Shown: positions 15,409-62,669 of the stretch, in pieces
How positions within the stretch are numbered: the stretch's first letter is position 1
How the letters are laid out: each line of letters opens with the position of its first letter
Source: Favolaschia claudopus
Taxonomy: Eukaryota; Basidiomycota; Agaricomycetes; Agaricales; Mycenaceae
Direction of reading: 5' to 3'
Assembly: GCA_037176885.1 (NCBI GenBank)
Contig: JAWWNJ010000095.1
Location: forward strand, 990,032-1,054,031
Length of the DNA: 64,000 nt
Program-made: the position numbers and the translations under genes
Notes under the pieces: model-generated
What the model was told of the DNA's origin: nothing
Seen by the model: the letters and a program-made list of their open reading frames with translations, nothing else
The model's database searches: none

Positions 15409-15424
15409 CTAGCTATCTTACCCG

Positions 15425-15444
15425 GGAATGCAGGCCTGAATTCC
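15425..15444 (-). other. Terminal hairpin of module A1
   Basis: GGAATGCAGGCCTGAATTCC is self-complementary except for one mismatched pair. It lies about 12 nt inside the CTAG terminus. The same sequence recurs at the same offset in all 13 units. Confidence 0.75.
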
Positions 15445-15467
15445 GTGAAATAGGCCTCAAAACCAGT

Positions 15468-15587
15468 GGAATCCACACCACCTTTGGCAGCGTGGGAGGG
15501 AATCCATGCCACCTTTGTGCAAATGCCCCCAGAATGGACGGAATCCACACCACCTACTGGAATCCACGCCACCTGCTGGAATCCACC
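15468..15587. repeat. Module A1 iteron block
   Basis: Five GGAATCCAC-type repeats about 13-40 bp apart. The last two are nearly adjacent, a spacing shared by all four module types. Confidence 0.75.
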
Positions 15588-16120
15588 AAAAATCTGAGAG
15601 CCAACTCGAAAATGTGAACGGATACTTATAGACGACCCCAAGCCCTTATAATAGATGTGGAAAAAATTATAATCACCAGCAAGGCCTTATAAGAATTGCG
15701 ACTCACCGCCAAAAAAAATTATAAGCCAGAGCCAAGGCTTATAAGAAATGCGATTGAACAGCCGACTCAAGGCATCGGGAAAAAATGGTGAAGACCAAAA
15801 GGGTGCCAAATAGCCTGGGAATCAGCCTAGTGTCACCGCAAACACCCGAACAGGTCTCGTTGACGTGCTATATTGACTTGGAGGGAAACCGTACAGCTTG
15901 GACGGAAAGCTTGGTACGACAGTCAATTGAGCACCGATTGCCTTGGGTATGGGCTCGAATTGAAGCGATTGACGACGACTATAAGATGACATCATCATCG
16001 ATCGAGCCGCAGGTCACCTGACATTTACGACTCGGTCAAACACTGCGTTCGAAGCCATACGGAATACACAAGGCAACCCCCAAGCACAGACGTTAAGGTT
16101 TGCGACAACACCACAACACA

Positions 16121-16197
16121 GACGTTAAGGTTAGTGGTCCCACTCCCCCGACGGAATTCACCAAAATCCAAAATTTTTTCGGCAGCTTCGGAAAGGA
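16121..16197 (+). other. Conserved core with telomere-like seed (A1 example)
   Basis: GACGTTAAGGTTAG is followed by CACTCCCCCGACGGAAT and ATTTTTTCGGCAGCTTCGG. This block is almost unchanged in A1, A2 (17711-17788), B1 and B2, although the surrounding bodies have diverged. A second seed (GACGTTAAGGTT) lies about 32 bp upstream in A1 and A2. Confidence 0.7.
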
Positions 16198-16830
16198 AAC
16201 CACGGACCAAGCAATCCAGCAAGGCAATGCACGGGTTAGATGACGCAATCCAGGAAGGCATTGGGCAACTAGCCACTCAAACCTCCCCGCCTTCGTAAAG
16301 GAAATCGCGGGGCACCGAGTGAACAGAAGGACGTACTCAAGTGTACAACACAACTGCCAACAATACATTACCAAGTACGGTACACCACAGAGCCTTATAG
16401 TAGCCAATCAACCCAGTCTGACCCTGTCGAACACATTCGGAGTGCTCTACCCACCACGCCACCTTGAGTCACAGCAGCAATTGCTTGCCTGGCAGTTTTG
16501 ATTTCTACAAAACGACCCCGCACCAAGCCTACTTGTATCGCTGCAACTACATCCGTCTGGGCAGCTATAGGGAACAGAGATCAGGCACACCTACTGGCCT
16601 TCAAAGGCTATGTTTGAGTCTCCAATAGCGAGCAGACTCTGCTGATCGGAAATCGTACCCGAGTCAAACACAATGTACCAGACTCAATTAGCCACCCATT
16701 GCCTTGGGTATAGGCTCGAAACGAAGCCTTTGACCGGCATTATAAGGCTATATGCGTGGCGGGAAAATCCGAGGGCATTGAGGCACTCAAGCAGGATATT
16801 GACTTGAATATTGCCTAGCTACGGTAACGG

Positions 16831-16850
16831 GGAATTCAGAGCTCAATTCC
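16831..16850 (-). other. Terminal hairpin of module A2
   Basis: GGAATTCAGAGCTCAATTCC: the GGAATT/AATTCC arms pair around an offset GAGCTC. It is the least perfect of the four hairpins. Confidence 0.65.
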
Positions 16851-16874
16851 GTGCAACAGGTCCCCGAATCCATG

Positions 16875-17030
16875 GGAATCCACTGCCAGACTTTGAAACA
16901 GCCCACTCAATTGAGCGGAATCCACTGCCACCTTGTGAAAACGTCCTCGAACTCAGTGGAATCCACTGCCACCCTGTGAAAAGCCGCCTCAAATGGGTGG
17001 AATCCACTGCCACCCTGGAATCCACTGCCA
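16875..17030. repeat. Module A2 iteron block
   Basis: Five copies of GGAATCCACTGCCA, invariant in the first 14 bases. Spacers are 20-40 bp except the last, which is a few bases. Confidence 0.78.
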
Positions 17031-18210
17031 ACAACAAATTGAAGACACTTCTTATAGCTGAAAGCAAAGCGTTATAATAAACACAACTCAAAGGAAACCC
17101 TCTCAGCCAACGCAATTGCCCAAACGAATTATTATAACGGCTCACCAGCCCTTATAATAAATGCCAGCTAAAATCATTATGATAGTCACCGGTTGGAGAG
17201 AGCGGAAAATATTGCTGGAACCAAATATGTCCCAAACGGCCTACAAACCATGGTAGTGTCACCGCGAATGGCCTGACAGGTCTCGTTGACTTGCTATATG
17301 GCCTCGAACGGAAACCGTAGGCAAACAATCGAAACTCTGATAGCGGAGTCAATTCTCTACCGATTGCCTTGGTTGTAGGCTCGAATTGAAGCGTTTGAAT
17401 AGAGCTACAAGGGTCTGCAATGATCGGCCTTATCGAACCGCATGAAGGGACTCAAGTACTGGGAGGCGTTGAATATATACGGTCAAACTGTGTGCAGAGA
17501 CAAGTGCACTGCATCAACTGAATACGTCTCACTGATAGGCCTTCACAACCACGCATTACGAGTCACTGGTATCTTGGCAAGGTTTAGGGATATCAACTTC
17601 AACGGGTATAGACACTGCGTAAACCCAAACACACCGATCGAAGCTATACGGAATCCAGCAAGGCAACACCAGAGCAGAGACGTTAAGGTTGGCAACAACC
17701 CAACAGCACGGACGTTAAGGTTAGCGGCCCCACTCCCCCGACGGAATCCACCAAAATCCAAAATTTTTTCGGCAGCTTCGGAAAGGAAATCGAAGGGCAC
17801 ACAATCCAGCAAGGCAGTGTACGGGTTAACAACGGAATGCAGCAAGACATTGGCGAACTAGCCACTCATAGCTCCCCGCTATCGTAAAGGAAACCAAGGT
17901 CAACGGAGTGAAAGGAAGAGACGTAAGCAAGTAGCGACCATCCATTATAAGGCCGGAGCCCACAGAGCCTCGATACAACACTTCAAACAGTACAGACATT
18001 CAGTGAAGGTCAACCATCATTATAAGGCCAGAATAGCACCAATACGACCACAGCCTTATAGTGTTCAACTGAGTCAATACAATATGAGACTGTGTTCAAC
18101 CAGGCAAGTGAACACTGTTGAGCCCATGTACCAAGAGTCCGAGGCCATGCATTGTAATGGAGCGAAGCCTTGGTGATATTGCTTGGAATGCGGAGGGGGA
18201 TGCAGCAAGA

Positions 18211-21012
18211 CTAGCTATCTTACCCGGGAATGCAGGCCTGAATTCCGTGAAATAGGCCTCAAAACCAGTGGAATCCACACCACCTTTGGCAGCGTGGGAG
18301 GGAATCCATGCCACCTTTGTGCAAATGCCCCCAGAATGGACGGAATCCACACCACCTACTGGAATCCACGCCACCTGCTGGAATCCACCAAAAATCTGAG
18401 AGCCAACTCGAAAATGTGAACGGATACTTATAGACGACCCCAAGCCCTTATAATAGATGTGGAAAAAATTATAATCACCAGCAAGGCCTTATAAGAATTG
18501 CGACTCACCGCCAAAAAAAATTATAAGCCAGAGCCAAGGCTTATAAGAAATGCGATTGAACAGCCGACTCAAGGCATCGGGAAAAAATGGTGAAGACCAA
18601 AAGGGTGCCAAATAGCCTGGGAATCAGCCTAGTGTCACCGCAAACACCCGAACAGGTCTCGTTGACGTGCTATATTGACTTGGAGGGAAACCGTACAGCT
18701 TGGACGGAAAGCTTGGTACGACAGTCAATTGAGCACCGATTGCCTTGGGTATGGGCTCGAATTGAAGCGATTGACGACGACTATAAGATGACATCATCAT
18801 CGATCGAGCCGCAGGTCACCTGACATTTACGACTCGGTCAAACACTGCGTTCGAAGCCATACGGAATACACAAGGCAACCCCCAAGCACAGACGTTAAGG
18901 TTTGCGACAACACCACAACACAGACGTTAAGGTTAGTGGTCCCACTCCCCCGACGGAATTCACCAAAATCCAAAATTTTTTCGGCAGCTTCGGAAAGGAA
19001 ACCACGGACCAAGCAATCCAGCAAGGCAATGCACGGGTTAGATGACGCAATCCAGGAAGGCATTGGGCAACTAGCCACTCAAACCTCCCCGCCTTCGTAA
19101 AGGAAATCGCGGGGCACCGAGTGAACAGAAGGACGTACTCAAGTGTACAACACAACTGCCAACAATACATTACCAAGTACGGTACACCACAGAGCCTTAT
19201 AGTAGCCAATCAACCCAGTCTGACCCTGTCGAACACATTCGGAGTGCTCTACCCACCACGCCACCTTGAGTCACAGCAGCAATTGCTTGCCTGGCAGTTT
19301 TGATTTCTACAAAACGACCCCGCACCAAGCCTACTTGTATCGCTGCAACTACATCCGTCTGGGCAGCTATAGGGAACAGAGATCAGGCACACCTACTGGC
19401 CTTCAAAGGCTATGTTTGAGTCTCCAATAGCGAGCAGACTCTGCTGATCGGAAATCGTACCCGAGTCAAACACAATGTACCAGACTCAATTAGCCACCCA
19501 TTGCCTTGGGTATAGGCTCGAAACGAAGCCTTTGACCGGCATTATAAGGCTATATGCGTGGCGGGAAAATCCGAGGGCATTGAGGCACTCAAGCAGGATA
19601 TTGACTTGAATATTGCCTAGCTACGGTAACGGGGAATTCAGAGCTCAATTCCGTGCAACAGGTCCCCGAATCCATGGGAATCCACTGCCAGACTTTGAAA
19701 CAGCCCACTCAATTGAGCGGAATCCACTGCCACCTTGTGAAAACGTCCTCGAACTCAGTGGAATCCACTGCCACCCTGTGAAAAGCCGCCTCAAATGGGT
19801 GGAATCCACTGCCACCCTGGAATCCACTGCCAACAACAAATTGAAGACACTTCTTATAGCTGAAAGCAAAGCGTTATAATAAACACAACTCAAAGGAAAC
19901 CCTCTCAGCCAACGCAATTGCCCAAACGAATTATTATAACGGCTCACCAGCCCTTATAATAAATGCCAGCTAAAATCATTATGATAGTCACCGGTTGGAG
20001 AGAGCGGAAAATATTGCTGGAACCAAATATGTCCCAAACGGCCTACAAACCATGGTAGTGTCACCGCGAATGGCCTGACAGGTCTCGTTGACTTGCTATA
20101 TGGCCTCGAACGGAAACCGTAGGCAAACAATCGAAACTCTGATAGCGGAGTCAATTCTCTACCGATTGCCTTGGTTGTAGGCTCGAATTGAAGCGTTTGA
20201 ATAGAGCTACAAGGGTCTGCAATGATCGGCCTTATCGAACCGCATGAAGGGACTCAAGTACTGGGAGGCGTTGAATATATACGGTCAAACTGTGTGCAGA
20301 GACAAGTGCACTGCATCAACTGAATACGTCTCACTGATAGGCCTTCACAACCACGCATTACGAGTCACTGGTATCTTGGCAAGGTTTAGGGATATCAACT
20401 TCAACGGGTATAGACACTGCGTAAACCCAAACACACCGATCGAAGCTATACGGAATCCAGCAAGGCAACACCAGAGCAGAGACGTTAAGGTTGGCAACAA
20501 CCCAACAGCACGGACGTTAAGGTTAGCGGCCCCACTCCCCCGACGGAATCCACCAAAATCCAAAATTTTTTCGGCAGCTTCGGAAAGGAAATCGAAGGGC
20601 ACACAATCCAGCAAGGCAGTGTACGGGTTAACAACGGAATGCAGCAAGACATTGGCGAACTAGCCACTCATAGCTCCCCGCTATCGTAAAGGAAACCAAG
20701 GTCAACGGAGTGAAAGGAAGAGACGTAAGCAAGTAGCGACCATCCATTATAAGGCCGGAGCCCACAGAGCCTCGATACAACACTTCAAACAGTACAGACA
20801 TTCAGTGAAGGTCAACCATCATTATAAGGCCAGAATAGCACCAATACGACCACAGCCTTATAGTGTTCAACTGAGTCAATACAATATGAGACTGTGTTCA
20901 ACCAGGCAAGTGAACACTGTTGAGCCCATGTACCAAGAGTCCGAGGCCATGCATTGTAATGGAGCGAAGCCTTGGTGATATTGCTTGGAATGCGGAGGGG
21001 GATGCAGCAAGA
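18211..21012 (-). repeat. Array A unit 2 (2,802 bp)
   Basis: A complete A1 plus A2 pair. I saw no difference from unit 1. Confidence 0.9.
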
Positions 21013-21663
21013 CTAGCTATCTTACCCGGGAATGCAGGCCTGAATTCCGTGAAATAGGCCTCAAAACCAGTGGAATCCACACCACCTTTGGCAGCGTGGG
21101 AGGGAATCCATGCCACCTTTGTGCAAATGCCCCCAGAATGGACGGAATCCACACCACCTACTGGAATCCACGCCACCTGCTGGAATCCACCAAAAATCTG
21201 AGAGCCAACTCGAAAATGTGAACGGATACTTATAGACGACCCCAAGCCCTTATAATAGATGTGGAAAAAATTATAATCACCAGCAAGGCCTTATAAGAAT
21301 TGCGACTCACCGCCAAAAAAAATTATAAGCCAGAGCCAAGGCTTATAAGAAATGCGATTGAACAGCCGACTCAAGGCATCGGGAAAAAATGGTGAAGACC
21401 AAAAGGGTGCCAAATAGCCTGGGAATCAGCCTAGTGTCACCGCAAACACCCGAACAGGTCTCGTTGACGTGCTATATTGACTTGGAGGGAAACCGTACAG
21501 CTTGGACGGAAAGCTTGGTACGACAGTCAATTGAGCACCGATTGCCTTGGGTATGGGCTCGAATTGAAGCGATTGACGACGACTATAAGATGACATCATC
21601 ATCGATCGAGCCGCAGGTCACCTGACATTTACGACTCGGTCAAACACTGCGTTCGAAGCCATA

Positions 21664-22000
21664 CTATACTGCCAATTAGGGCTGGATTTGCACAATGGGT
21701 CTGGATTTCCGATTTCTCTCTGTTCCCTTTTATCTCTTGCCCCCGGAAACTTCCGGCATTCATTCATGTACATCTTAGCTACACACATATGAAAAAACTA
21801 AGGGAAAGGACGAGAGGAAGGTATTAAGAAAGACTTACCGGAGCATCAAAGTCAGTGATGCTGGAAGGTATCATCCTATTCCGGCCTCAAATCTCAAGGA
21901 AAAAACCCCGGGAAAGGGGGAGCAGAGTTGAGATGCATACTAGGCATGCTCTGCGTGCTCGGAATTTTTTACCGGTGCGTCGTTGTTGCGCGCTGGAGGA
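21664..22000 (+). repeat. Left 337-bp terminal inverted repeat
   Basis: It matches the reverse complement of 24506-24842 and ends at GCGCGCTGGAGGA, after which the two sides diverge. It contains a small stem GCATCA/TGATGC near 21843. Confidence 0.88.
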
Positions 22001-22083
22001 GAAACGCGTCAGGTCACAAAATGTCACAATAGAAATCAATCTCCGCTCTGATTGATGTGATTCGTGCTCAGCACTCACCCTCC

Positions 22084-22909
22084 ATGTCTGACGATTCCTT
22101 CATCCCCTCATCTCCATCTACCGCATTCAGCTTAGCTTTGGACTGGGAGCAGTCTCAACATAAACAGGAAGCCCGGGAAGCACGGGAGGCTGAACTCACA
22201 CCACAAGAACGGGAGGAAGAGGCCGAGGAACGTCGCCGAAAACGCGTCAGATTCAATGGCGAATCTCCCCGGCCAGGAGACTCTTCCCCTCTCCTTCGCA
22301 AGAGGCGCCGGTTCATTGAAAAGTCTCTAGGATGGTCTAGCCCTTCGCAAACGCCCCGCCCTTCAGCTTTGCAGTCTACAGAGAAAACTTCCAGGTGTGT
22401 CCTGCTTCGTTATCTGTATTCTTCTAGCTCACCCTTCTCAGTTATTATCTGCCCCTGGGATATCTGGACTCGCAGGCTGACTCGCAAGACGTTGTCAATG
22501 CCCTCATTGCTAATCAACCTCAAGGACATTCACCTGAAATGCACACACCGCCCCGTCGTGTCTACGACTTTACGTCCCAAGACGTTCTGGATCAGCTGGA
22601 TCATCGGCTGCAGCCGCCTGTATATGGTACGCAAATTCACATCTCTGTTATCTTGCCTTTATTAACACCTATTGAGATGATGATGATCTTTCCCAAGAAC
22701 TCGACCTAAACCTCGAGCTTCGCGCGCAGCTGTTGCAAGCAGAAGAAGAACGCGACACGGCTTTTGACCAGCTGCGCGCTGCTGAATCCGCATGCGCCGA
22801 GGCCATCTCCGACAAACTGCGGGCAGAGGCAGAGTTGGCGCGATGGAAACAAGCTGCTGAGTCTGCGGCTCCGCTCGTCGCATTAGCTGCTTCCTGTATC
22901 AATACATAA
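22084..22909 (+). CDS. Transposon second ORF: coiled-coil protein of unknown function
   Basis: Three exons, 22084-22394, 22442-22626 and 22677-22909, with introns of 47 and 50 bp (GTGTGT..CAG, GTACGC..GAG), join into 242 residues. The N-terminal half is acidic/basic and low complexity (EEEAEERRRKRVRF around residues 47-60). It carries a basic cluster LRKRRRF that could act as a nuclear-localisation signal. The C-terminal ~70 residues form a heptad-like Leu/Ala/Glu coiled coil (LELRAQLLQAEEERDTAFDQ). It converges on the transposase gene with about 85 bp between stops. The splicing and intact frame argue for real coding. No homologous domain is recognised; a DNA- or transposase-binding accessory role is only an inference. 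Confidence 0.6.
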
Positions 22910-22994
22910 CAATTTATTGCATTCATATGGACCACTATTCAAAGGGTGAAACTATTTACTGGATGGAAATATTGCTATGGACATGTATGAAAGA

Positions 22995-24403
22995 TTATGG
23001 AGGAGGTAACTGATTATACGACGGGAAACCGAAGTCCGGATTAAAGTCAGAATAGGTAAAATTTTGGATGGGATGCAGCGGTTCTTGGGCAAAGGAAGGC
23101 ATCGAAAGCGGCGGGTGAGCAAGCACCGGGTCCACCGAGCCAAGCTGGCCAGAATATTGGATTCGGGGTGCGGAAGTTTGTTGGTACGAGATTGGTGTGT
23201 TGTCGAGGTAGAACGGAGTGGGCTGTGCAGGCAGTTGAGATGTGGATGGGGGCGGGGCAGCTTGAGAGGTGGAAGCGATGGGAGGAGAGGGAATAGCAGC
23301 ACGACGACCGCGTGGCGCACGCGTGAAAAGCCCACGATATTTGTTGCTGTCGCGCTCGGTAGGATGCTCGTCGAAATATTTGGTAATTCGCTCGAGAAGG
23401 GCGGCTCTTGTGCCGGCTTCGTCGAGCTGTAGCGAGAAGGCAATATCAACGAGGTTGTCCTTGTTCTTCGCAGAGAGGAGACCAGTGTAAGCTGCATTTG
23501 GGTCGCGGTTCCGGCGATTCTCGTCACGCTGATTCTCCTTCTCCCTGCGACGCTGTGCCGCATCCACTTTCTTCTGATCCTTTCGAGTCCTCTCTGCTTC
23601 TTTTTCCGCCGCCAACTTTTTGCCCTCGGCTGATGTCAAGACCCGCGCTTCGACATTCAGCTTCCGCTTCTTGCTCACCCGCGCATCCCGCTCATTTACC
23701 ACTCGGGAGATTGGGTAGCCCCGGAGAACACGAACCCGGGCTTGAGCTTGGTGCCATCTGCACATACCGCCTCGATGATTGTGATGAGCTCCAAGTTTGC
23801 GCTGCGATGCTTATACTTGGCGCGTTGTTTGCGTGAGTACAGATACTTGCGCCGGCTTGCCTTCTTCCCACCACCCCGCTGTACGCCTTTTTCGTCCATG
23901 TTGTATATATTCTCGATGGGAATTTCATGCTTCTCCACGAGTTCCGCGAGTTTATCAAAGTAGCGACCAATGACAGGCTCGTTAAAGGCTTTTGCGCGCT
24001 TGGGATCAAGAGCGGAGGCATTGAAAAAGGAGAGGGAAGGATGCCGTTTGAGAAAGGCATAAACCCAGTTACGGCTGGGCCTCTTTTTGAGCGGGTGTAG
24101 CTGCTGGGCGCGAGCTCGAACAGCCTTTTTTGAGAGTGGGACACCGATTTCACCAAGGTACTCCGCCCATTTGACCAGTACAAACTCCACTGAGGGGCTG
24201 AGAAAGGATTGGGATTGGCGGGCCTCAGAAGGGGAGCTATGGATATTACTGAAGCGAGCGTGAAGAGTAGAATAAGGTATGCCGAAGTCGCGAGCAGCTT
24301 GCTTGATGTTTGGCTTCCGGCCATACTGCCTCTGATGCAGGAGGCAGTTGCAGGCTTGCTTGATCTTCTGTTCTCGGTCATCAGAAGATGGGCCCGCTGG
24401 CAT
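22995..24403 (-). pseudogene. pogo-like transposase lacking its central catalytic region
   Basis: The first frame runs from ATG 24403 to TAA 23696 (235 residues). It shows an N-terminal helix-turn-helix (REQKIKQACN...IKQAARDFGIPYSTLHARF, ~12-50) and a CENPB/Tc5-type DNA-binding region (SVEFVLVKWAEYLGEIGVPL and RNWVYAFLKRHPSLSF, ~70-125). The start of the DDE domain follows, with the first catalytic Asp in NMDEKG, and it stops just after SPEW. The sequence then continues in another frame (from ~23720 to 22995) with a Lys/Glu/Arg-rich linker and a SAP-like motif (LVDIAFSLQLDEAGTRAALL). The segment with the second and third acidic residues is missing, so an internal deletion plus frameshift is inferred. 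The product could bind DNA but not catalyse transposition. Confidence 0.82.
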
Positions 24404-24505
24404 GCAACGCGTCAAGGAAGACGCGTACGGTCAACAACACGGTCGCGTGGGTGCTTGTTTGGTACACATCAGCGGAGTTTGATTTTGTCACGCTCACCAG
24501 AAATG

Positions 24506-24842
24506 TCCTCCAGCGCGCAACAACGACGCACCGGTAAAAAATTCCGAGCACGCAGAGCATGCCTAGTATGCATCTCAACTCTGCTCCCCCTTTCCCGGGG
24601 TTTTTTCCTTGAGATTTGAGGCCGGAATAGGATGATACCTTCCAGCATCACTGACTTTGATGCTCCGGTAAGTCTTTCTTAATACCTTCCTCTCGTCCTT
24701 TCCCTTAGTTTTTTCATATGTGTGTAGCTAAGATGTACATGAATGAATGCCGGAAGTTTCCGGGGGCAAGAGATAAAAGGGAACAGAGAGAAATCGGAAA
24801 TCCAGACCCATTGTGCAAATCCAGCCCTAATTGGCAGTATAG
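24506..24842 (-). repeat. Right 337-bp terminal inverted repeat
   Basis: Reverse complement of 21664-22000. I noticed no mismatch when reading the two arms side by side. Confidence 0.88.
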
Positions 24843-26995
24843 TACGGAATACACAAGGCAACCCCCAAGCACAGACGTTAAGGTTTGCGACAACACCACA
24901 ACACAGACGTTAAGGTTAGTGGTCCCACTCCCCCGACGGAATTCACCAAAATCCAAAATTTTTTCGGCAGCTTCGGAAAGGAAACCACGGACCAAGCAAT
25001 CCAGCAAGGCAATGCACGGGTTAGATGACGCAATCCAGGAAGGCATTGGGCAACTAGCCACTCAAACCTCCCCGCCTTCGTAAAGGAAATCGCGGGGCAC
25101 CGAGTGAACAGAAGGACGTACTCAAGTGTACAACACAACTGCCAACAATACATTACCAAGTACGGTACACCACAGAGCCTTATAGTAGCCAATCAACCCA
25201 GTCTGACCCTGTCGAACACATTCGGAGTGCTCTACCCACCACGCCACCTTGAGTCACAGCAGCAATTGCTTGCCTGGCAGTTTTGATTTCTACAAAACGA
25301 CCCCGCACCAAGCCTACTTGTATCGCTGCAACTACATCCGTCTGGGCAGCTATAGGGAACAGAGATCAGGCACACCTACTGGCCTTCAAAGGCTATGTTT
25401 GAGTCTCCAATAGCGAGCAGACTCTGCTGATCGGAAATCGTACCCGAGTCAAACACAATGTACCAGACTCAATTAGCCACCCATTGCCTTGGGTATAGGC
25501 TCGAAACGAAGCCTTTGACCGGCATTATAAGGCTATATGCGTGGCGGGAAAATCCGAGGGCATTGAGGCACTCAAGCAGGATATTGACTTGAATATTGCC
25601 TAGCTACGGTAACGGGGAATTCAGAGCTCAATTCCGTGCAACAGGTCCCCGAATCCATGGGAATCCACTGCCAGACTTTGAAACAGCCCACTCAATTGAG
25701 CGGAATCCACTGCCACCTTGTGAAAACGTCCTCGAACTCAGTGGAATCCACTGCCACCCTGTGAAAAGCCGCCTCAAATGGGTGGAATCCACTGCCACCC
25801 TGGAATCCACTGCCAACAACAAATTGAAGACACTTCTTATAGCTGAAAGCAAAGCGTTATAATAAACACAACTCAAAGGAAACCCTCTCAGCCAACGCAA
25901 TTGCCCAAACGAATTATTATAACGGCTCACCAGCCCTTATAATAAATGCCAGCTAAAATCATTATGATAGTCACCGGTTGGAGAGAGCGGAAAATATTGC
26001 TGGAACCAAATATGTCCCAAACGGCCTACAAACCATGGTAGTGTCACCGCGAATGGCCTGACAGGTCTCGTTGACTTGCTATATGGCCTCGAACGGAAAC
26101 CGTAGGCAAACAATCGAAACTCTGATAGCGGAGTCAATTCTCTACCGATTGCCTTGGTTGTAGGCTCGAATTGAAGCGTTTGAATAGAGCTACAAGGGTC
26201 TGCAATGATCGGCCTTATCGAACCGCATGAAGGGACTCAAGTACTGGGAGGCGTTGAATATATACGGTCAAACTGTGTGCAGAGACAAGTGCACTGCATC
26301 AACTGAATACGTCTCACTGATAGGCCTTCACAACCACGCATTACGAGTCACTGGTATCTTGGCAAGGTTTAGGGATATCAACTTCAACGGGTATAGACAC
26401 TGCGTAAACCCAAACACACCGATCGAAGCTATACGGAATCCAGCAAGGCAACACCAGAGCAGAGACGTTAAGGTTGGCAACAACCCAACAGCACGGACGT
26501 TAAGGTTAGCGGCCCCACTCCCCCGACGGAATCCACCAAAATCCAAAATTTTTTCGGCAGCTTCGGAAAGGAAATCGAAGGGCACACAATCCAGCAAGGC
26601 AGTGTACGGGTTAACAACGGAATGCAGCAAGACATTGGCGAACTAGCCACTCATAGCTCCCCGCTATCGTAAAGGAAACCAAGGTCAACGGAGTGAAAGG
26701 AAGAGACGTAAGCAAGTAGCGACCATCCATTATAAGGCCGGAGCCCACAGAGCCTCGATACAACACTTCAAACAGTACAGACATTCAGTGAAGGTCAACC
26801 ATCATTATAAGGCCAGAATAGCACCAATACGACCACAGCCTTATAGTGTTCAACTGAGTCAATACAATATGAGACTGTGTTCAACCAGGCAAGTGAACAC
26901 TGTTGAGCCCATGTACCAAGAGTCCGAGGCCATGCATTGTAATGGAGCGAAGCCTTGGTGATATTGCTTGGAATGCGGAGGGGGATGCAGCAAGA

Positions 26996-52212: not shown

Positions 52213-54872
52213 CTAGCTATCTTACCCGGGAATGCAGGCCTGAATTCCGTGAAATAGGCCTCAAAACCAGTGGAATCCACACCACCTTTGGCAGCGTGGG
52301 AGGGAATCCATGCCACCTTTGTGCAAATGCCCCCAGAATGGACGGAATCCACACCACCTACTGGAATCCACGCCACCTGCTGGAATCCACCAAAAATCTG
52401 AGAGCCAACTCGAAAATGTGAACGGATACTTATAGACGACCCCAAGCCCTTATAATAGATGTGGAAAAAATTATAATCACCAGCAAGGCCTTATAAGAAT
52501 TGCGACTCACCGCCAAAAAAAATTATAAGCCAGAGCCAAGGCTTATAAGAAATGCGATTGAACAGCCGACTCAAGGCATCGGGAAAAAATGGTGAAGACC
52601 AAAAGGGTGCCAAATAGCCTGGGAATCAGCCTAGTGTCACCGCAAACACCCGAACAGGTCTCGTTGACGTGCTATATTGACTTGGAGGGAAACCGTACAG
52701 CTTGGACGGAAAGCTTGGTACGACAGTCAATTGAGCACCGATTGCCTTGGGTATGGGCTCGAATTGAAGCGATTGACGACGACTATAAGATGACATCATC
52801 ATCGATCGAGCCGCAGGTCACCTGACATTTACGACTCGGTCAAACACTGCGTTCGAAGCCATACGGAATACACAAGGCAACCCCCAAGCACAGACGTTAA
52901 GGTTTGCGACAACACCACAACACAGACGTTAAGGTTAGTGGTCCCACTCCCCCGACGGAATTCACCAAAATCCAAAATTTTTTCGGCAGCTTCGGAAAGG
53001 AAACCACGGACCAAGCAATCCAGCAAGGCAATGCACGGGTTAGATGACGCAATCCAGGAAGGCATTGGGCAACTAGCCACTCAAACCTCCCCGCCTTCGT
53101 AAAGGAAATCGCGGGGCACCGAGTGAACAGAAGGACGTACTCAAGTGTACAACACAACTGCCAACAATACATTACCAAGTACGGTACACCACAGAGCCTT
53201 ATAGTAGCCAATCAACCCAGTCTGACCCTGTCGAACACATTCGGAGTGCTCTACCCACCACGCCACCTTGAGTCACAGCAGCAATTGCTTGCCTGGCAGT
53301 TTTGATTTCTACAAAACGACCCCGCACCAAGCCTACTTGTATCGCTGCAACTACATCCGTCTGGGCAGCTATAGGGAACAGAGATCAGGCACACCTACTG
53401 GCCTTCAAAGGCTATGTTTGAGTCTCCAATAGCGAGCAGACTCTGCTGATCGGAAATCGTACCCGAGTCAAACACAATGTACCAGACTCAATTAGCCACC
53501 CATTGCCTTGGGTATAGGCTCGAAACGAAGCCTTTGACCGGCATTATAAGGCTATATGCGTGGCGGGAAAATCCGAGGGCATTGAGGCACTCAAGCAGGA
53601 TATTGACTTGAATATTGCCTAGCTACGGTAACGGGGAATTCAGAGCTCAATTCCGTGCAACAGGTCCCCGAATCCATGGGAATCCACTGCCAGACTTTGA
53701 AACAGCCCACTCAATTGAGCGGAATCCACTGCCACCTTGTGAAAACGTCCTCGAACTCAGTGGAATCCACTGCCACCCTGTGAAAAGCCGCCTCAAATGG
53801 GTGGAATCCACTGCCACCCTGGAATCCACTGCCAACAACAAATTGAAGACACTTCTTATAGCTGAAAGCAAAGCGTTATAATAAACACAACTCAAAGGAA
53901 ACCCTCTCAGCCAACGCAATTGCCCAAACGAATTATTATAACGGCTCACCAGCCCTTATAATAAATGCCAGCTAAAATCATTATGATAGTCACCGGTTGG
54001 AGAGAGCGGAAAATATTGCTGGAACCAAATATGTCCCAAACGGCCTACAAACCATGGTAGTGTCACCGCGAATGGCCTGACAGGTCTCGTTGACTTGCTA
54101 TATGGCCTCGAACGGAAACCGTAGGCAAACAATCGAAACTCTGATAGCGGAGTCAATTCTCTACCGATTGCCTTGGTTGTAGGCTCGAATTGAAGCGTTT
54201 GAATAGAGCTACAAGGGTCTGCAATGATCGGCCTTATCGAACCGCATGAAGGGACTCAAGTACTGGGAGGCGTTGAATATATACGGTCAAACTGTGTGCA
54301 GAGACAAGTGCACTGCATCAACTGAATACGTCTCACTGATAGGCCTTCACAACCACGCATTACGAGTCACTGGTATCTTGGCAAGGTTTAGGGATATCAA
54401 CTTCAACGGGTATAGACACTGCGTAAACCCAAACACACCGATCGAAGCTATACGGAATCCAGCAAGGCAACACCAGAGCAGAGACGTTAAGGTTGGCAAC
54501 AACCCAACAGCACGGACGTTAAGGTTAGCGGCCCCACTCCCCCGACGGAATCCACCAAAATCCAAAATTTTTTCGGCAGCTTCGGAAAGGAAATCGAAGG
54601 GCACACAATCCAGCAAGGCAGTGTACGGGTTAACAACGGAATGCAGCAAGACATTGGCGAACTAGCCACTCATAGCTCCCCGCTATCGTAAAGGAAACCA
54701 AGGTCAACGGAGTGAAAGGAAGAGACGTAAGCAAGTAGCGACCATCCATTATAAGGCCGGAGCCCACAGAGCCTCGATACAACACTTCAAACAGTACAGA
54801 CATTCAGTGAAGGTCAACCATCATTATAAGGCCAGAATAGCACCAATACGACCACAGCCTTATAGTGTTCAA
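52213..54872 (-). repeat. Array A unit 13, truncated at the A/B junction (2,660 bp)
   Basis: The last 142 bp of module A2 are replaced by array B immediately after TAGTGTTCAA. On the minus strand the junction reads CTAG from B1, then TTGAACAC from A2. Confidence 0.9.
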
Positions 54873-54888
54873 CTAGCTATCTTCCCCG

Positions 54889-54908
54889 GGAATTACGATC
54901 GTAATTCC
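54889..54908 (-). other. Perfect terminal palindrome of module B1
   Basis: GGAATTACGATCGTAATTCC equals its own reverse complement over all 20 bases. It recurs at 57633-57652 and 60376-60395. Confidence 0.85.
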
Positions 54909-54931
54909 GTGAAAAGGGTTCCCAAACCGGT

Positions 54932-55048
54932 GGAATTATGGTTGCAATTGACATCGTGGGAAGGAATTATGGTTGCAGTGCTTAACAACAGGTCTAAAAT
55001 GACTCAGATTGCAGGAATTATGGTTGATGACTGGAATTATGGTTGCAC
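54932..55048. repeat. Module B1 iteron block
   Basis: Four copies of GGAATTATGGTTG(C/A)(A/T), different in sequence from the A1, A2 and B2 iterons but equivalent in place and spacing. Confidence 0.78.
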
Positions 55049-56328
55049 CCAGAATCTTCGGAGTAGAAAACAAACACACAATACTTATAACACCTCGCAA
55101 CCGACTATAAGAAACGAACGAAATGAACTCAACTCTTATAGCCCGAAGCAAGGCCTTATAATAAACGCAACTCAAAGGAAACCCTCTCAGCCGACGCAAT
55201 TGCCCAAACGAATTATTATAACGGCTCACCAGCCCTTATAATAAATGCCAGCTAAAATCATTATTATAGTCACCGGTGGGACAGTGCGGAAAATATTGCT
55301 GGAACCAAATATGTCCCAAATGGCTTACAAACCATGGTAGTGTCACCGCGAATGCCCTGACAGGTCTCGTTGACTTGCTAGATGGCCTCAAACGGAAACC
55401 GTAGGGTGAAAACCGAAACTCTGATAGCGCAGTCAATTCTCTACCGATTGCCTTGGGTCTAGGCTCAAATTGAAGCGTTTGAGTAGGGCTACAAGGCTAC
55501 ACTGCCAGCGATTGCATTGAACTATGTCAAGGTGCTCAGATATTCACACGTCTTGAATATATCTGGTAGTATGCGTCCAGAGACAAGTACACTGCATCGA
55601 TTGAATATGTCTCACTCATAGGCCTTCAAAACCAAGCATTATATGGCCCTGGTATTCTGGCAAGGTTTAGGCATATCGACTTCAGACAGTACAGACACTG
55701 CGTAGACAATACAAGCACCGAACACACCGATCGAAGCTATATGGAATCCAGCAGGGCAACACCAGAGCAGAGACGTTAAGGTTGGCGACAACCCAACAGC
55801 ACAGACGTTAAGGTTAGTGGTCCCACTCCCCCGACGGAATCCACCAAAATCCAAAATTTTTTCGGCAGCTTCGGAAAGGAAGTCGAAGGGCACACAATCC
55901 AGCAAGGCAGTGTACGGGTTAACAACAGAATGCAGCAAGACATTGGCGAACTAGCCACTCATAGCTCCCCGCTATCGTAAAGGCAACCAAGGTCATTGGA
56001 GTGAGGGAAGAGACGTTCTCAAGTAGAGACCAACCATTCATTATAGGGCCAGAGACCACAGAGCCTCAATACAACACTTCAAACAGTACAGACATTCAGT
56101 GAAGGTCAAGCATTATTACTATAAGGCCGGAATGGTACTGAATACAACCAGAGCCTTAGAGTCTTCAATTCAGTCAATACAGGATAAGACTGTGTTCAAC
56201 CAGCCAAGGTGAACACCGTTGAGCCCATGTACCAACAGCCAGAGTCAATGCCTTGGAATGGAGCAAAGCCTTGGTGATATAGCCTGGAATGCGGAGGGGA
56301 ATCCAGAAAGACTAGCTATGGTAATGGA

Positions 56329-56346
56329 GAATGCGGTGCCGCATTC
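56329..56346 (-). other. Terminal hairpin of module B2
   Basis: GAATGCGGTGCCGCATTC: 8-bp arms separated by two bases. It recurs at 59072-59089 and 61815-61832. Confidence 0.8.
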
Positions 56347-56371
56347 CTTGCAAAAGGTCCCCAAAAGTGCT

Positions 56372-56490
56372 GGGATTCGGGTGGGCACTGGCAGTGTGAG
56401 AGGGAATTCGGAGGGGCACCAATTCAAACACCTCCTAATCTGACTGACTTGGAGGAATTCGGAGGGGCACGTGGAATCGGGAGGGGCAAG
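56372..56490. repeat. Module B2 iteron block
   Basis: GGGATTCGGGTGGGCAC, then GGAATTCGGAGGGGCAC twice, then GGAATCGGGAGGGGCA. The last two are almost adjacent. Confidence 0.72.
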
Positions 56491-57616
56491 CAATCTGACC
56501 CCCCAAGTCAAAAACAAAAACAGAATCTTATAGTCACCAGCAAGGCCCTATAAGAATTGCGACTCACTGCCAAAAAAAATTATAAGCCAGAGCCAAGGCT
56601 TATAAGAAATGCGATTGAACAGCCGACTCAAGCCATCGGGAAGAATTGGTGGAAACCAAAAGGGTGTCAAATAGCTTGGGAATTAGCCTAGTATCACCGC
56701 AAACGCCTGACCAGGTCTCGTTGACGTGCTATATTGACTTGAACCGAAATCGTAAGGCAAAAAGCAAAACTACAACAGCACAGTCAATTGAGCACCGATT
56801 GCCTTGGTTGTAGGCTCGAATGGAAGCCTTTGACGAGGACTATAAGACGGTGTCATCAGCGATCGAGTCGCAGGTCACCTGACATTTACGACTCGGTCAA
56901 ACACTGCGTTCGAAGCCATACGGAATGCACAAGGCAATACCAAAGCATGGATGTTAAGGTTTGGGACAACAACACAGCACAGACGTTAAGGTTAGTGGTC
57001 CCACTCCCCCGACGGAATTCACCAAAATCCAGAATTTTTTCGGCAGCTTCGGAAAGGAAACCGCGGACCAAGCAATCCAGCAAGGCAATGCACGGGTTAG
57101 ATGACACAATCCAGCAAGACATTGGCGAACTAGCCGCTCAAACCTCCCCGCCTTCGTAAAGGCAATCAATCACGGGGCACCGAGTAAATAGAAGGACGTA
57201 CTCAAGTGTACAACACGACGGCCAACAATACATTACCAAGTACGGTACACCACAGAACCTTATAGTAGCCAATCAACCCAGTCTGACCCTGTCGAACACA
57301 TTCGGAGTGCTCTACCCACCGAGCCGGTCTGAGTCAGAGCAGCAGAAGTCTGACTTGTCCAACACCATCCCGTTCATCGACTCATCATCAGACGGAGTCG
57401 TGGCAGTATACCGAGCATTATAGTGGGCAATATATCATTGAAAGAGTCAAGTGAACACATTCTACCCATCAGACTCGGAGAATACCGACTACCAACACCG
57501 CATCTGGCACCCACTCCAATAATCACTTGCCGAGCTAACAGGAGGCTATAACGACAGGGAAGTGCATGCCAAAAGAAGATACAAACTGCCGGAATCAGGA
57601 GACGGATCCAGAGAGA

Positions 57617-60359
57617 CTAGCTATCTTCCCCGGGAATTACGATCGTAATTCCGTGAAAAGGGTTCCCAAACCGGTGGAATTATGGTTGCAATTGACATCG
57701 TGGGAAGGAATTATGGTTGCAGTGCTTAACAACAGGTCTAAAATGACTCAGATTGCAGGAATTATGGTTGATGACTGGAATTATGGTTGCACCCAGAATC
57801 TTCGGAGTAGAAACAAACACACAATACTTATAACACCTCGCAACCGACTATAAGAAACGAACGAAATGAACTCAACTCTTATAGCCCGAAGCAAGGCCTT
57901 ATAATAAACGCAACTCAAAGGAAACCCTCTCAGCCGACGCAATTGCCCAAACGAATTATTATAACGGCTCACCAGCCCTTATAATAAATGCCAGCTAAAA
58001 TCATTATTATAGTCACCGGTGGGACAGTGCGGAAAATATTGCTGGAACCAAATATGTCCCAAATGGCTTACAAACCATGGTAGTGTCACCGCGAATGCCC
58101 TGACAGGTCTCGTTGACTTGCTAGATGGCCTCAAACGGAAACCGTAGGGTGAAAACCGAAACTCTGATAGCGCAGTCAATTCTCTACCGATTGCCTTGGG
58201 TCTAGGCTCAAATTGAAGCGTTTGAGTAGGGCTACAAGGCTACACTGCCAGCGATTGCATTGAACTATGTCAAGGTGCTCAGATATTCACACGTCTTGAA
58301 TATATCTGGTAGTATGCGTCCAGAGACAAGTACACTGCATCGATTGAATATGTCTCACTCATAGGCCTTCAAAACCAAGCATTATATGGCCCTGGTATTC
58401 TGGCAAGGTTTAGGCATATCGACTTCAGACAGTACAGACACTGCGTAGACAATACAAGCACCGAACACACCGATCGAAGCTATATGGAATCCAGCAGGGC
58501 AACACCAGAGCAGAGACGTTAAGGTTGGCGACAACCCAACAGCACAGACGTTAAGGTTAGTGGTCCCACTCCCCCGACGGAATCCACCAAAATCCAAAAT
58601 TTTTTCGGCAGCTTCGGAAAGGAAGTCGAAGGGCACACAATCCAGCAAGGCAGTGTACGGGTTAACAACAGAATGCAGCAAGACATTGGCGAACTAGCCA
58701 CTCATAGCTCCCCGCTATCGTAAAGGCAACCAAGGTCATTGGAGTGAGGGAAGAGACGTTCTCAAGTAGAGACCAACCATTCATTATAGGGCCAGAGACC
58801 ACAGAGCCTCAATACAACACTTCAAACAGTACAGACATTCAGTGAAGGTCAAGCATTATTACTATAAGGCCGGAATGGTACCGAATACAACCAGAGCCTT
58901 AGAGTCTTCAATTCAGTCAATACAGGATAAGACTGTGTTCAACCAGCCAAGGTGAACACCGTTGAGCCCATGTACCAACAGCCAGAGTCAATGCCTTGGA
59001 ATGGAGCAAAGCCTTGGTGATATAGCCTGGAATGCGGAGGGGAATCCAGAAAGACTAGCTATGGTAATGGAGAATGCGGTGCCGCATTCCTTGCAAAAGG
59101 TCCCCAAAAGTGCTGGGATTCGGGTGGGCACTGGCAGTGTGAGAGGGAATTCGGAGGGGCACCAATTCAAACACCTCCTAATCTGACTGACTTGGAGGAA
59201 TTCGGAGGGGCACGTGGAATCGGGAGGGGCAAGCAATCTGACCCCCCAAGTCAAAAACAAAAACAGAATCTTATAGTCACCAGCAAGGCCCTATAAGAAT
59301 TGCGACTCACTGCCAAAAAAAATTATAAGCCAGAGCCAAGGCTTATAAGAAATGCGATTGAACAGCCGACTCAAGCCATCGGGAAGAATTGGTGGAAACC
59401 AAAAGGGTGTCAAATAGCTTGGGAATTAGCCTAGTATCACCGCAAACGCCTGACCAGGTCTCGTTGACGTGCTATATTGACTTGAACCGAAATCGTAAGG
59501 CAAAAAGCAAAACTACAACAGCACAGTCAATTGAGCACCGATTGCCTTGGTTGTAGGCTCGAATGGAAGCCTTTGACGAGGACTATAAGACGGTGTCATC
59601 AGCGATCGAGTCGCAGGTCACCTGACATTTACGACTCGGTCAAACACTGCGTTCGAAGCCATACGGAATGCACAAGGCAATACCAAAGCATGGATGTTAA
59701 GGTTTGGGACAACAACACAGCACAGACGTTAAGGTTAGTGGTCCCACTCCCCCGACGGAATTCACCAAAATCCAGAATTTTTTCGGCAGCTTCGGAAAGG
59801 AAACCGCGGACCAAGCAATCCAGCAAGGCAATGCACGGGTTAGATGACACAATCCAGCAAGACATTGGCGAACTAGCCGCTCAAACCTCCCCGCCTTCGT
59901 AAAGGCAATCAATCACGGGGCACCGAGTAAATAGAAGGACGTACTCAAGTGTACAACACGACGGCCAACAATACATTACCAAGTACGGTACACCACAGAA
60001 CCTTATAGTAGCCAATCAACCCAGTCTGACCCTGTCGAACACATTCGGAGTGCTCTACCCACCGAGCCGGTCTGAGTCAGAGCAGCAGAAGTCTGACTTG
60101 TCCAACACCATCCCGTTCATCGACTCATCATCAGACGGAGTCGTGGCAGTATACCGAGCATTATAGTGGGCAATATATCATTGAAAGAGTCAAGTGAACA
60201 CATTCTACCCATCAGACTCGGAGAATACCGACTACCAACACCGCATCTGGCACCCACTCCAATAATCACTTGCCGAGCTAACAGGAGGCTATAACGACAG
60301 GGAAGTGCATGCCAAAAGAAGATACAAACTGCCGGAATCAGGAGACGGATCCAGAGAGA
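57617..60359 (-). repeat. Array B unit 2 (2,743 bp)
   Basis: A complete B1 (57617-59054) and B2 (59055-60359). Confidence 0.9.
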
Positions 60360-62474
60360 CTAGCTATCTTCCCCGGGAATTACGATCGTAATTCCGTGAA
60401 AAGGGTTCCCAAACCGGTGGAATTATGGTTGCAATTGACATCGTGGGAAGGAATTATGGTTGCAGTGCTTAACAACAGGTCTAAAATGACTCAGATTGCA
60501 GGAATTATGGTTGATGACTGGAATTATGGTTGCACCCAGAATCTTCGGAGTAGAAACAAACACACAATACTTATAACACCTCGCAACCGACTATAAGAAA
60601 CGAACGAAATGAACTCAACTCTTATAGCCCGAAGCAAGGCCTTATAATAAACGCAACTCAAAGGAAACCCTCTCAGCCGACGCAATTGCCCAAACGAATT
60701 ATTATAACGGCTCACCAGCCCTTATAATAAATGCCAGCTAAAATCATTATTATAGTCACCGGTGGGACAGTGCGGAAAATATTGCTGGAACCAAATATGT
60801 CCCAAATGGCTTACAAACCATGGTAGTGTCACCGCGAATGCCCTGACAGGTCTCGTTGACTTGCTAGATGGCCTCAAACGGAAACCGTAGGGTGAAAACC
60901 GAAACTCTGATAGCGCAGTCAATTCTCTACCGATTGCCTTGGGTCTAGGCTCAAATTGAAGCGTTTGAGTAGGGCTACAAGGCTACACTGCCAGCGATTG
61001 CATTGAACTATGTCAAGGTGCTCAGATATTCACACGTCTTGAATATATCTGGTAGTATGCGTCCAGAGACAAGTACACTGCATCGATTGAATATGTCTCA
61101 CTCATAGGCCTTCAAAACCAAGCATTATATGGCCCTGGTATTCTGGCAAGGTTTAGGCATATCGACTTCAGACAGTACAGACACTGCGTAGACAATACAA
61201 GCACCGAACACACCGATCGAAGCTATATGGAATCCAGCAGGGCAACACCAGAGCAGAGACGTTAAGGTTGGCGACAACCCAACAGCACAGACGTTAAGGT
61301 TAGTGGTCCCACTCCCCCGACGGAATCCACCAAAATCCAAAATTTTTTCGGCAGCTTCGGAAAGGAAGTCGAAGGGCACACAATCCAGCAAGGCAGTGTA
61401 CGGGTTAACAACAGAATGCAGCAAGACATTGGCGAACTAGCCACTCATAGCTCCCCGCTATCGTAAAGGCAACCAAGGTCATTGGAGTGAGGGAAGAGAC
61501 GTTCTCAAGTAGAGACCAACCATTCATTATAGGGCCAGAGACCACAGAGCCTCAATACAACACTTCAAACAGTACAGACATTCAGTGAAGGTCAAGCATT
61601 ATTACTATAAGGCCGGAATGGTACCGAATACAACCAGAGCCTTAGAGTCTTCAATTCAGTCAATACAGGATAAGACTGTGTTCAACCAGCCAAGGTGAAC
61701 ACCGTTGAGCCCATGTACCAACAGCCAGAGTCAATGCCTTGGAATGGAGCAAAGCCTTGGTGATATAGCCTGGAATGCGGAGGGGAATCCAGAAAGACTA
61801 GCTATGGTAATGGAGAATGCGGTGCCGCATTCCTTGCAAAAGGTCCCCAAAAGTGCTGGGATTCGGGTGGGCACTGGCAGTGTGAGAGGGAATTCGGAGG
61901 GGCACCAATTCAAACACCTCCTAATCTGACTGACTTGGAGGAATTCGGAGGGGCACGTGGAATCGGGAGGGGCAAGCAATCTGACCCCCCAAGTCAAAAA
62001 CAAAAACAGAATCTTATAGTCACCAGCAAGGCCCTATAAGAATTGCGACTCACTGCCAAAAAAAATTATAAGCCAGAGCCAAGGCTTATAAGAAATGCGA
62101 TTGAACAGCCGACTCAAGCCATCGGGAAGAATTGGTGGAAACCAAAAGGGTGTCAAATAGCTTGGGAATTAGCCTAGTATCACCGCAAACGCCTGACCAG
62201 GTCTCGTTGACGTGCTATATTGACTTGAACCGAAATCGTAAGGCAAAAAGCAAAACTACAACAGCACAGTCAATTGAGCACCGATTGCCTTGGTTGTAGG
62301 CTCGAATGGAAGCCTTTGACGAGGACTATAAGACGGTGTCATCAGCGATCGAGTCGCAGGTCACCTGACATTTACGACTCGGTCAAACACTGCGTTCGAA
62401 GCCATACGGAATGCACAAGGCAATACCAAAGCATGGATGTTAAGGTTTGGGACAACAACACAGCACAGACGTTA
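60360..62474 (-). repeat. Array B unit 3, truncated by the telomere tract
   Basis: B1 is complete (60360-61797). B2 (61798 onward) runs to GACGTTA at 62474, where the expected AGGTTAGTGG is replaced by GGGTTAGGG. Confidence 0.92.
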
Positions 62475-62669
62475 GGGTTAGGGTTAGGGTTAGGGTTAGG
62501 GTTAGGGTTAGGGTTAGGGTTAGGGTTAGGGTTAGGGTTAGGGTTAGGGTTAGGGTTAGGGTTAGGGTTAGGGTTAGGGTTAGGGTTAGGGTTAGGGTTA
62601 GGGTTAGGGTTAGGGTTAGGGTTAGGGTTAGGGTTAGGGTTAGGGTTAGGGTTAGGGTTAGGGTTAGGG
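62472..62669 (+). repeat. Interstitial telomere tract, 33 perfect TTAGGG repeats
   Basis: The tract is 198 bp without a single interruption. The G-rich strand points right, so it is oriented as the right-hand end of a chromosome ending in array B. The length is in the range of a whole fungal telomere, yet coding DNA follows directly. Confidence 0.97.

Follow-up and report, generated by a model that had tools for sequence, protein, structure and literature searches.

The last 64 kb of contig C95 of Favolaschia claudopus (the window, 64,000 nucleotides; the contig has 1,054,031 bases, in an assembly of 264.6 Mb and 460 contigs) contain a long run of repeated modules next to a telomere repeat tract. 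As judged from their sequence, the modules are non-coding members of a diverged family, about 1.3-1.4 kb each, found mostly at chromosome ends. From comparison of sequences we consider it very probable that they are joined one-sidedly by a constant 3' end at (A)G, that they are sited, truncated and capped at chromosome ends, and that composite units were amplified. The 3' end, consisting of a palindrome, 12-13 nucleotides (nt) and CTAG, would be joined to a truncated recipient where AG, or at least G, precedes; the recipients would be host DNA present in single copy, earlier modules, dispersed repeats and, in one case, a reverse-transcriptase element. The outer 5' side would be trimmed later, after which the next element would be added or a TTAGGG cap placed, and repeated addition would give head-to-tail arrays with every 3' end facing inward. 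Composite two-module units were probably amplified afterwards, enlarging the array in the window. One-ended growth of chromosome ends of this kind appears to fit no known element family fully.

An earlier reading of the window (the original prediction), made from the letters alone, had placed a minus-strand hairpin, a short spacer and CTAG at every module boundary. The pattern GAAT-N10-ATTC-N10-TAGCTAG occurred 31 times in the window, only on the minus strand (mean of 100 dinucleotide shuffles, 0.00), and slightly relaxed lengths gave 32 module ends, from 15409 to 61798, with 0 on the plus strand. On the minus strand the terminus consisted of a GGAAT...ATTC palindrome, about 20 nt long and separated from CTAG by 12-13 nt, and ended in TAGCTAG. 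The letters directly past CTAG were GCAATATTCAAG at 13 ends, TCTTGCTGCATC at 12, TCTTTCTGGATT at three, TCTCTCTGGATC at two and TTGAACACTATA at one, and the host sequence AATTATCTTCGC followed once, at the inner edge. Genome-wide, 661 + 839 = 1,500 matches to the terminus were found, and the reversed control gave 0. CTAG, which agrees with the CTRR end of Helitrons, was nearly invariant, being present in 209 of 215 loosely matched termini, a set in which overlapping loci are counted more than once. The predicted palindrome and spacing were thus recovered, and the hairpin itself we only infer; z-scores for single-stranded DNA folding of four termini against shuffles were 0.45, -0.37, -2.41 and -1.07. 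In the four inner palindrome pairs of 32 distinct variants, 117 combinations were Watson-Crick, 1 was G-T and 10 were other, and the inner pairs covary; the outer four pairs were set by the search pattern and carry no evidential weight, and the variants are non-independent, which makes this moderate evidence. A structure selected as RNA is expected to accept G-U more readily than other mismatches. Because G-U was no better tolerated here, a palindrome acting at the DNA level, as a hairpin or as a two-fold protein site, is favoured.

The site of joining was deduced from intact relatives of the recipient sequence. We took 73 junctions that were distinct in their first 20 downstream letters and left out 35 without a usable intact relative, among them full-length starts and several host edges. 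In the 38 informative junctions, the dinucleotide before the join was AG in 27, GG in 6, TG in 2, CA in 2 and AC in 1, and G directly preceded the join in 35; the rows without G were AATTGATGC, AGTCCGTC and CATTCCAAG. About 35 of these sites are independent, since three ACCTG rows represent one site and two TGTCTATA rows another, and one ACCTG row was scored GG although most of its relatives have AG. When the register was moved by 1 to 8 letters in either direction, AG was found in only 0-3 of the 38. As AG makes up 4.7% of module dinucleotides, the binomial p for the rule is about 1e-27, a guide rather than an exact value, the modules being related. Looser matching gave 46 rows in which TG, CG and GG were commoner, and an earlier version of the scoring gave a similar picture. 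AG was found at 0 of 7 positions capped by telomere repeats (cap boundaries set by eye); erosion or telomerase capping was therefore rejected as the origin of the rule, which seems to stem from the joining step rather than from removal of the outer part. The letter preceding AG was A in 10, G in 9, C in 7 and T in 1 of the 27 AG junctions, and a splice-site reading was rejected because these letters are unlike the 3' splice-site consensus.

The original prediction had called for A/T or T/T insertion sites, in place of which (A)G was found before the join. Past CTAG, 288 copies had A, 395 had G and 80 had C, so that 763 of about 1,500 junction copies had a letter other than T; these are counts of copies, not of events. 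CTAG followed by T and a letter other than C occurred 169 times, by a less strict pattern whose matches included a few unrelated sites dispersed in the genome. Among the 38 junctions T followed in 8, a figure biased by choice, because the lists from which junctions were fetched had A or C, in most cases A, after CTAG, or mostly A, C or G.

Eight host recipients had intact, element-free counterparts elsewhere, and AG stood before the join in seven of them. The C36 recipient matched C47:1487k (99.75% over 405 bp; CAG before the join), that of the window matched C17:2011k (97.2% over 502 bp; TTGAAG), that of C32 had further copies on C32 and C235 (up to 100%; AAG), and that of C7 matched C61 (86.7% over 412 bp; GG). 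The recipients at the start of C27, at an internal piece of C27 and on C3 were dispersed sequences with several copies each, and their counterparts read CAG, GAG and CAG, respectively. The C3 host junction lies outside the 38 because its terminus reads TAGCTTTAGCTAG. The C15 recipient was a reverse-transcriptase element with a second copy on C15, and AAG preceded the join. The counterparts of C36, C7 and C32 had, on their other side, no match in the fetched joined locus. C95 and C402 had their edge in common (100% over 1,201 bp).

The 3' end of the modules was constant and the 5' end variable. A pattern search of the genome for intact 5' starts, which does not cover the TCTCTCTGGATCC type, gave 246 starts preceded by G and 0 preceded by any other letter. 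Since every intact start found follows G, no two-ended solo copy was seen with this pattern, although solo copies with TC and CTAG ends had been predicted. TC opened 98 of 100 starts among the listed rows of the 246, and 14 distinct starts judged to be full-length comprised 9 with TC, 3 with CC, 1 with AC and 1 without the base. As the original prediction had noted, three of the four module types in the window begin with TCT, but 14 of the 31 inter-module junctions do not continue with TC.

Among the matches listed (the first 100 per list, and all 80 of one list), the 3' end of the module pointed away from the chromosome end at each of the 23 ends tallied. This tally was made by hand on contigs of known length, with near taken as within about 100 kb of the end. 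Plus-strand matches lay near the starts of C7, C10, C15, C27, C34, C46, C61, C88 and C134, and minus-strand matches near the ends of C5, C8, C11, C13, C16, C17, C28, C32, C36, C43, C47, C83, C95 and C98. Outside the tally are contigs of unknown length and C3, C14, C21:1221k, C21:2050k, C27:640k, 1006k and 1741k, C33, C47:1462k, C59 and C130, which are away from known ends or on contigs whose length is not known. Modules were capped by telomere repeats on C5, C16, C32, C36, C7, C15 and C95. On C5, unique DNA was followed by a CTAG terminus, about 0.66 kb of element and then telomere repeats as far as the contig end. On C36, about 0.15 kb of element was sandwiched between unique DNA and telomere repeats; C32 carried a single terminal piece of about 1.34 kb, and C16 two modules, under telomere repeats. 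Such terminal single copies, read together with the intact counterparts, make the order of events readable as break, addition, truncation and capping.

About ten loci were away from known ends, and the five inspected (C3, C21:1221k, two on C27, and C33) were all truncated pieces. The pieces at C27:640k and C27:1006k were rejected as independent events, as the flank spacing suggests one shared piece of 465 bp. This piece, beside the end of a DNA transposon, was apparently duplicated together with the sequence around it and occurs at no fewer than five places, namely the two on C27 and, by flank spacing, C86, C127 and C145. C21:2050k was rejected as an internal locus because a TTAGGG tract adjoins it. 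That tract (C21:2050.9k, positions 1-24 of the fetched stretch) lies beside the array, 222 kb from the contig end, and may be an interstitial telomere or an assembly join.

In the window, the repeat stretch was composed of two minus-strand arrays, A at 15409-54872 and B at 54873-62470, and its predicted head-to-tail, telomere-adjacent character was borne out. Array A is built of 2,802-bp units, each with modules A1 (1,406 bp; 5'-truncated, starting GCAATATT) and A2 (1,396 bp; starting TCTTGCTGCATC). In self-comparison the units were 99.97-100% identical; there were 13 A1 ends, and 11 complete units followed in succession with 4 distinct sequences among them. The innermost 3' terminus, of A1 type with palindrome, spacer and CTAG, lies at 15409-15443 on the minus strand, with host DNA from 15408, and one of 13 A2-type termini lies at 16815-16849 (minus strand). 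Array B contains about 2.8 copies of a two-module unit of 2,743 bp. Its 3' terminus at 54873-54907 (minus strand) abuts, by CTAG, the outermost A2 module of array A, which is truncated at 54872; ACTCAG precedes this position in an intact A2 relative. A second B-type terminus, with the palindrome core GCGGCACCGC, lies at 56312-56346 on the minus strand. The claim that the whole array is one concatemer failed on two counts, as one module of the A unit is cut short at a recipient AG site, and the A module to which array B is joined is truncated differently.

The truncated outer B module is capped by a plus-strand (GTTAGG)n tract at 62471-62670, and TTAAC, not AG, precedes the cap position in an intact relative. 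The remaining 1,330 bases (62671-64000, plus strand) were 100% identical to an internal stretch of C13 (C13:675417-676746) and also matched C42 and C100, with 93-94% identity; from these matches they are probably a chimeric contig tip. Because the tip beyond it matches internal C13, the telomere tract probably represents the real chromosome end. Apart from a transposon insertion, no open reading frame of at least 150 amino acids lay wholly inside a module in the window, and no Rfam family was found there at gathering score. The insertion, located by self-comparison offsets at 21665-24842 on the minus strand within one A unit, is a secondary DNA transposon of 3.18 kb whose flanks overlap by 3 bp. 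Its open reading frame at 23696-24415 matched PF03221, a Tc5-type DNA-binding domain, and is a transposase fragment of that type. Short direct repeats of 41-bp and 19-bp units were observed just before the palindrome (16875-17017, 15540-15586 and copies); they are iteron-like, and each module type has its own set with different letters.

Beneath the C15 array (C15:19697-25645) lay two tandem copies of a reverse-transcriptase element in the orientation of the modules, a truncated copy first and then a longer copy with its 3' end running into CCCTAA repeats. Its motif and the telomere repeats at its end lead us to take this element for a Penelope-type one, a name that no library gave it. Its reverse transcriptase had 323 relatives, several of them annotated as reverse transcriptase, and its two frames gave no PDB or Pfam match. 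The best named relative of a reverse transcriptase from this genome was from Mycena chlorophos (64% identical), and others were from Armillaria, Sanghuangporus, Phellinidium and Lyophyllum. At C21:2050k, a type-III hammerhead match on the minus strand (43.5 bits, below the gathering score of 48.5; E 1e-6; positions 560-614 of the fetched stretch) and CCCTAA repeats lie between two modules.

Helitron Rep genes were also present, with at least 167 PF14214 matches in the genome. Rep genes near contig starts were considered as partners of the modules and rejected, as C83 (first 20 kb) and C436 (9 kb) gave no terminus or module match. A Rep-domain gene was observed near the same coordinate, 13192, on C83, C129 and C194, and also on C286 and C436; over 8.2 kb the C83 copy is identical to that on C436. 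Separately, an unrelated dispersed palindrome with CTAG followed by TT was seen at C14:2225116, C18:1728987, C20:1030655, C21:1320428, C52:100088 and C52:211225, and may be the 3' end of an ordinary Helitron family.

As for the joining enzyme, our ranking from the sequence features places a Helitron-like HUH protein acting one-endedly first and a Penelope-type reverse transcriptase second. Such a protein, supplied in trans, would recognize the palindrome, cut after CTAG and transfer the freed end to a strand that has been cut behind AG, close to a break or a chromosome end. Distal DNA would then be lost rather than linked to the 5' end of the element, and the precise CTAG|TC junctions would arise from the same machinery, as the joints of circles or concatemers. 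A HUH protein accounts for the terminus, the DNA-level palindrome, the AG common to donor end and target, and the CTAG|TC junctions. A reverse transcriptase of Penelope or telomerase type needs fewer new assumptions to explain siting and orientation. The whole statement, in which the sequence comparison is combined with a trans-acting Helitron-like HUH enzyme, is offered tentatively, with confidence just short of even. The broader proposal, that HUH-driven rolling-circle DNA elements add to exposed chromosome ends one-sidedly at AG sites alongside telomerase, is a possibility that we hold with somewhat less confidence still.

Several observations weigh against this proposal. No Helitron described in the literature compared targets AG or chromosome ends. 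Among the matches listed, no Rep gene was linked to modules, and the Rep matches on C3, C5 and C8 had no exact-pattern terminus within the same few kb. The folding energy of the palindrome was weak in two of four termini, and G was lacking in 3 and AG in 11 of the 38 junctions. Of 18 contig starts fetched, three carried telomere repeats; C15 had modules, and C6 and C8 had none in the first 2.5 kb, so that arrays are not universal at ends, given two telomere-bearing starts of three without them. Truncated pieces were also found at a distance from contig ends, on C3, C21, C27 and C33.

In another explanation, module RNA ending in AG would base-pair with a chromosomal 3' end that terminates in CT and be copied by an endonuclease-free reverse transcriptase, a HeT-A/Athena-like addition carried out by the Penelope-type elements at the same ends (endonuclease-deficient ones of fungi are called Coprina) or by telomerase. 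The element of the same orientation beneath the C15 array, the hammerhead-like motif with CCCTAA repeats on C21, and the variable first letter of full-length starts all agree with it. Inward 3' ends, truncated 5' sides and telomere capping do so as well, being known features of end-attached retroelements (PMC3846280, PMC5537684). However, the palindrome showed no tolerance of G-U, the C15 element ends in CCCTAA repeats whereas the modules end in CTAG, and in three respects the 3' terminus is like that of Helitrons. Longer pairing would be possible with TAG before the join, but TAG was found in only 1 of 27 cases. We regard this route as unlikely, though it deserves serious attention.

Joining might also require no dedicated enzyme, if extrachromosomal linear copies ending in CTAG were caught at broken ends by microhomology. 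The overlap of one or two letters and the joins to unrelated single-copy sequences would suit such break repair, but general microhomology joining should give varied ends and longer overlaps, whereas one exact element end was used and the overlap stopped sharply at two letters (TAG in 1 of 27); we judge this improbable. Two further explanations seem very improbable to us. The missed rolling-circle termination of a canonical Helitron, put forward in the original prediction, would explain the terminus and the precise CTAG|TC junctions; it conflicts with (A)G in place of A|T, with the lack of any intact 5' start outside G-preceded junctions, and with the truncated member of the composite unit. 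An ordinary subtelomeric satellite spread solely by homologous exchange between chromosome ends would be in line with the near-identical amplified units and with the edge shared by C95 and C402, but the same element end was joined under one rule to many unrelated sequences that are found element-free elsewhere.

Returning to the one-ended HUH proposal, the closest DNA elements for comparison are Helitrons, which end in a palindrome followed by CTAG and insert between A and T (PMC4778049, PMC4289320). The modules resemble Helraiser of bats and HELPO of Pleurotus in the 3' palindrome of about 20 nt located about 12 nt from CTAG, in a start that is usually TC, and in precise CTAG|TC junctions (PMC4778049, PMC4289320). 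Helraiser circles join TC to CTAG (PMC4778049), and the Pleurotus Helitron start is given as T[C/G] (PMC4289320). Unlike these elements, the modules join at (A)G instead of A|T, are sited at chromosome ends, have no Rep gene and no two-ended solo copies seen, and do not hold strictly to TC. Helraiser can do without its 3' end but not without its 5' end (PMC4778049); in the modules it is the 3' end that stays constant, and the 5' end is variable. At one-ended joins of Helraiser and IS91, 2-nt overlaps are described (PMC4778049); the likeness to IS91, a bacterial element whose last two letters overlap the target, is one of description, sequences not having been compared. Thus, the predicted Helitron nature was upheld for the 3' terminus but not for the target site or for two-ended copies. 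Because these tested features were not found, the elements are not classed as Helitrons, though their 3' end works, or at least looks, Helitron-like.

In the literature compared, chromosome ends are built by mobile elements that are retroelements (PMC3846280, PMC5537684, PMC6431247, PMC7367193), and the listed titles and abstract openings of mainly open-access literature gave no Helitron-like or palindrome-ended elements attached to chromosome ends. Here an element end resembling that of a rolling-circle DNA transposon seems to add to chromosome ends in a one-ended manner and with a sharply defined target, and the AG before the join can be checked in any fungal genome assembled from long reads. 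Should a Helitron protein be the joining enzyme, chromosome ends would have a further, DNA-based way of growing, in which a DNA transposon does, beside telomerase, what HeT-A does by reverse transcription. The modules share with terminal retroelements their siting at ends, the single orientation (23 of 23 among those listed), the truncated 5' side and telomere capping; they have no reverse transcriptase of their own, judging by the open reading frames of the window, and end in CTAG, not in the reverse-complement telomere repeats found at the 3' end of Penelope-like elements. Athena and the Terminons, which are endonuclease-deficient Penelope-like elements, likewise attach to exposed ends in one orientation, are 5'-truncated and become telomere-capped (PMC3846280, PMC6431247), but they encode reverse transcriptase and end in telomere repeats, whereas the modules end in CTAG and join AG of any sequence. 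HeT-A, TART and TAHRE of Drosophila form oriented head-to-tail end arrays with 3' ends toward the centromere (PMC5537684); in contrast to the modules, which have TTAGGG caps, they are retroelements that carry coding sequence, end in poly-A and take the place of telomerase repeats. MoTeR of the blast fungus inserts in telomere repeats, whereas the modules mostly abut each other or host DNA directly, and both form telomeric arrays with truncated members, later expansion and new telomeres on truncated ends (PMC7367193).

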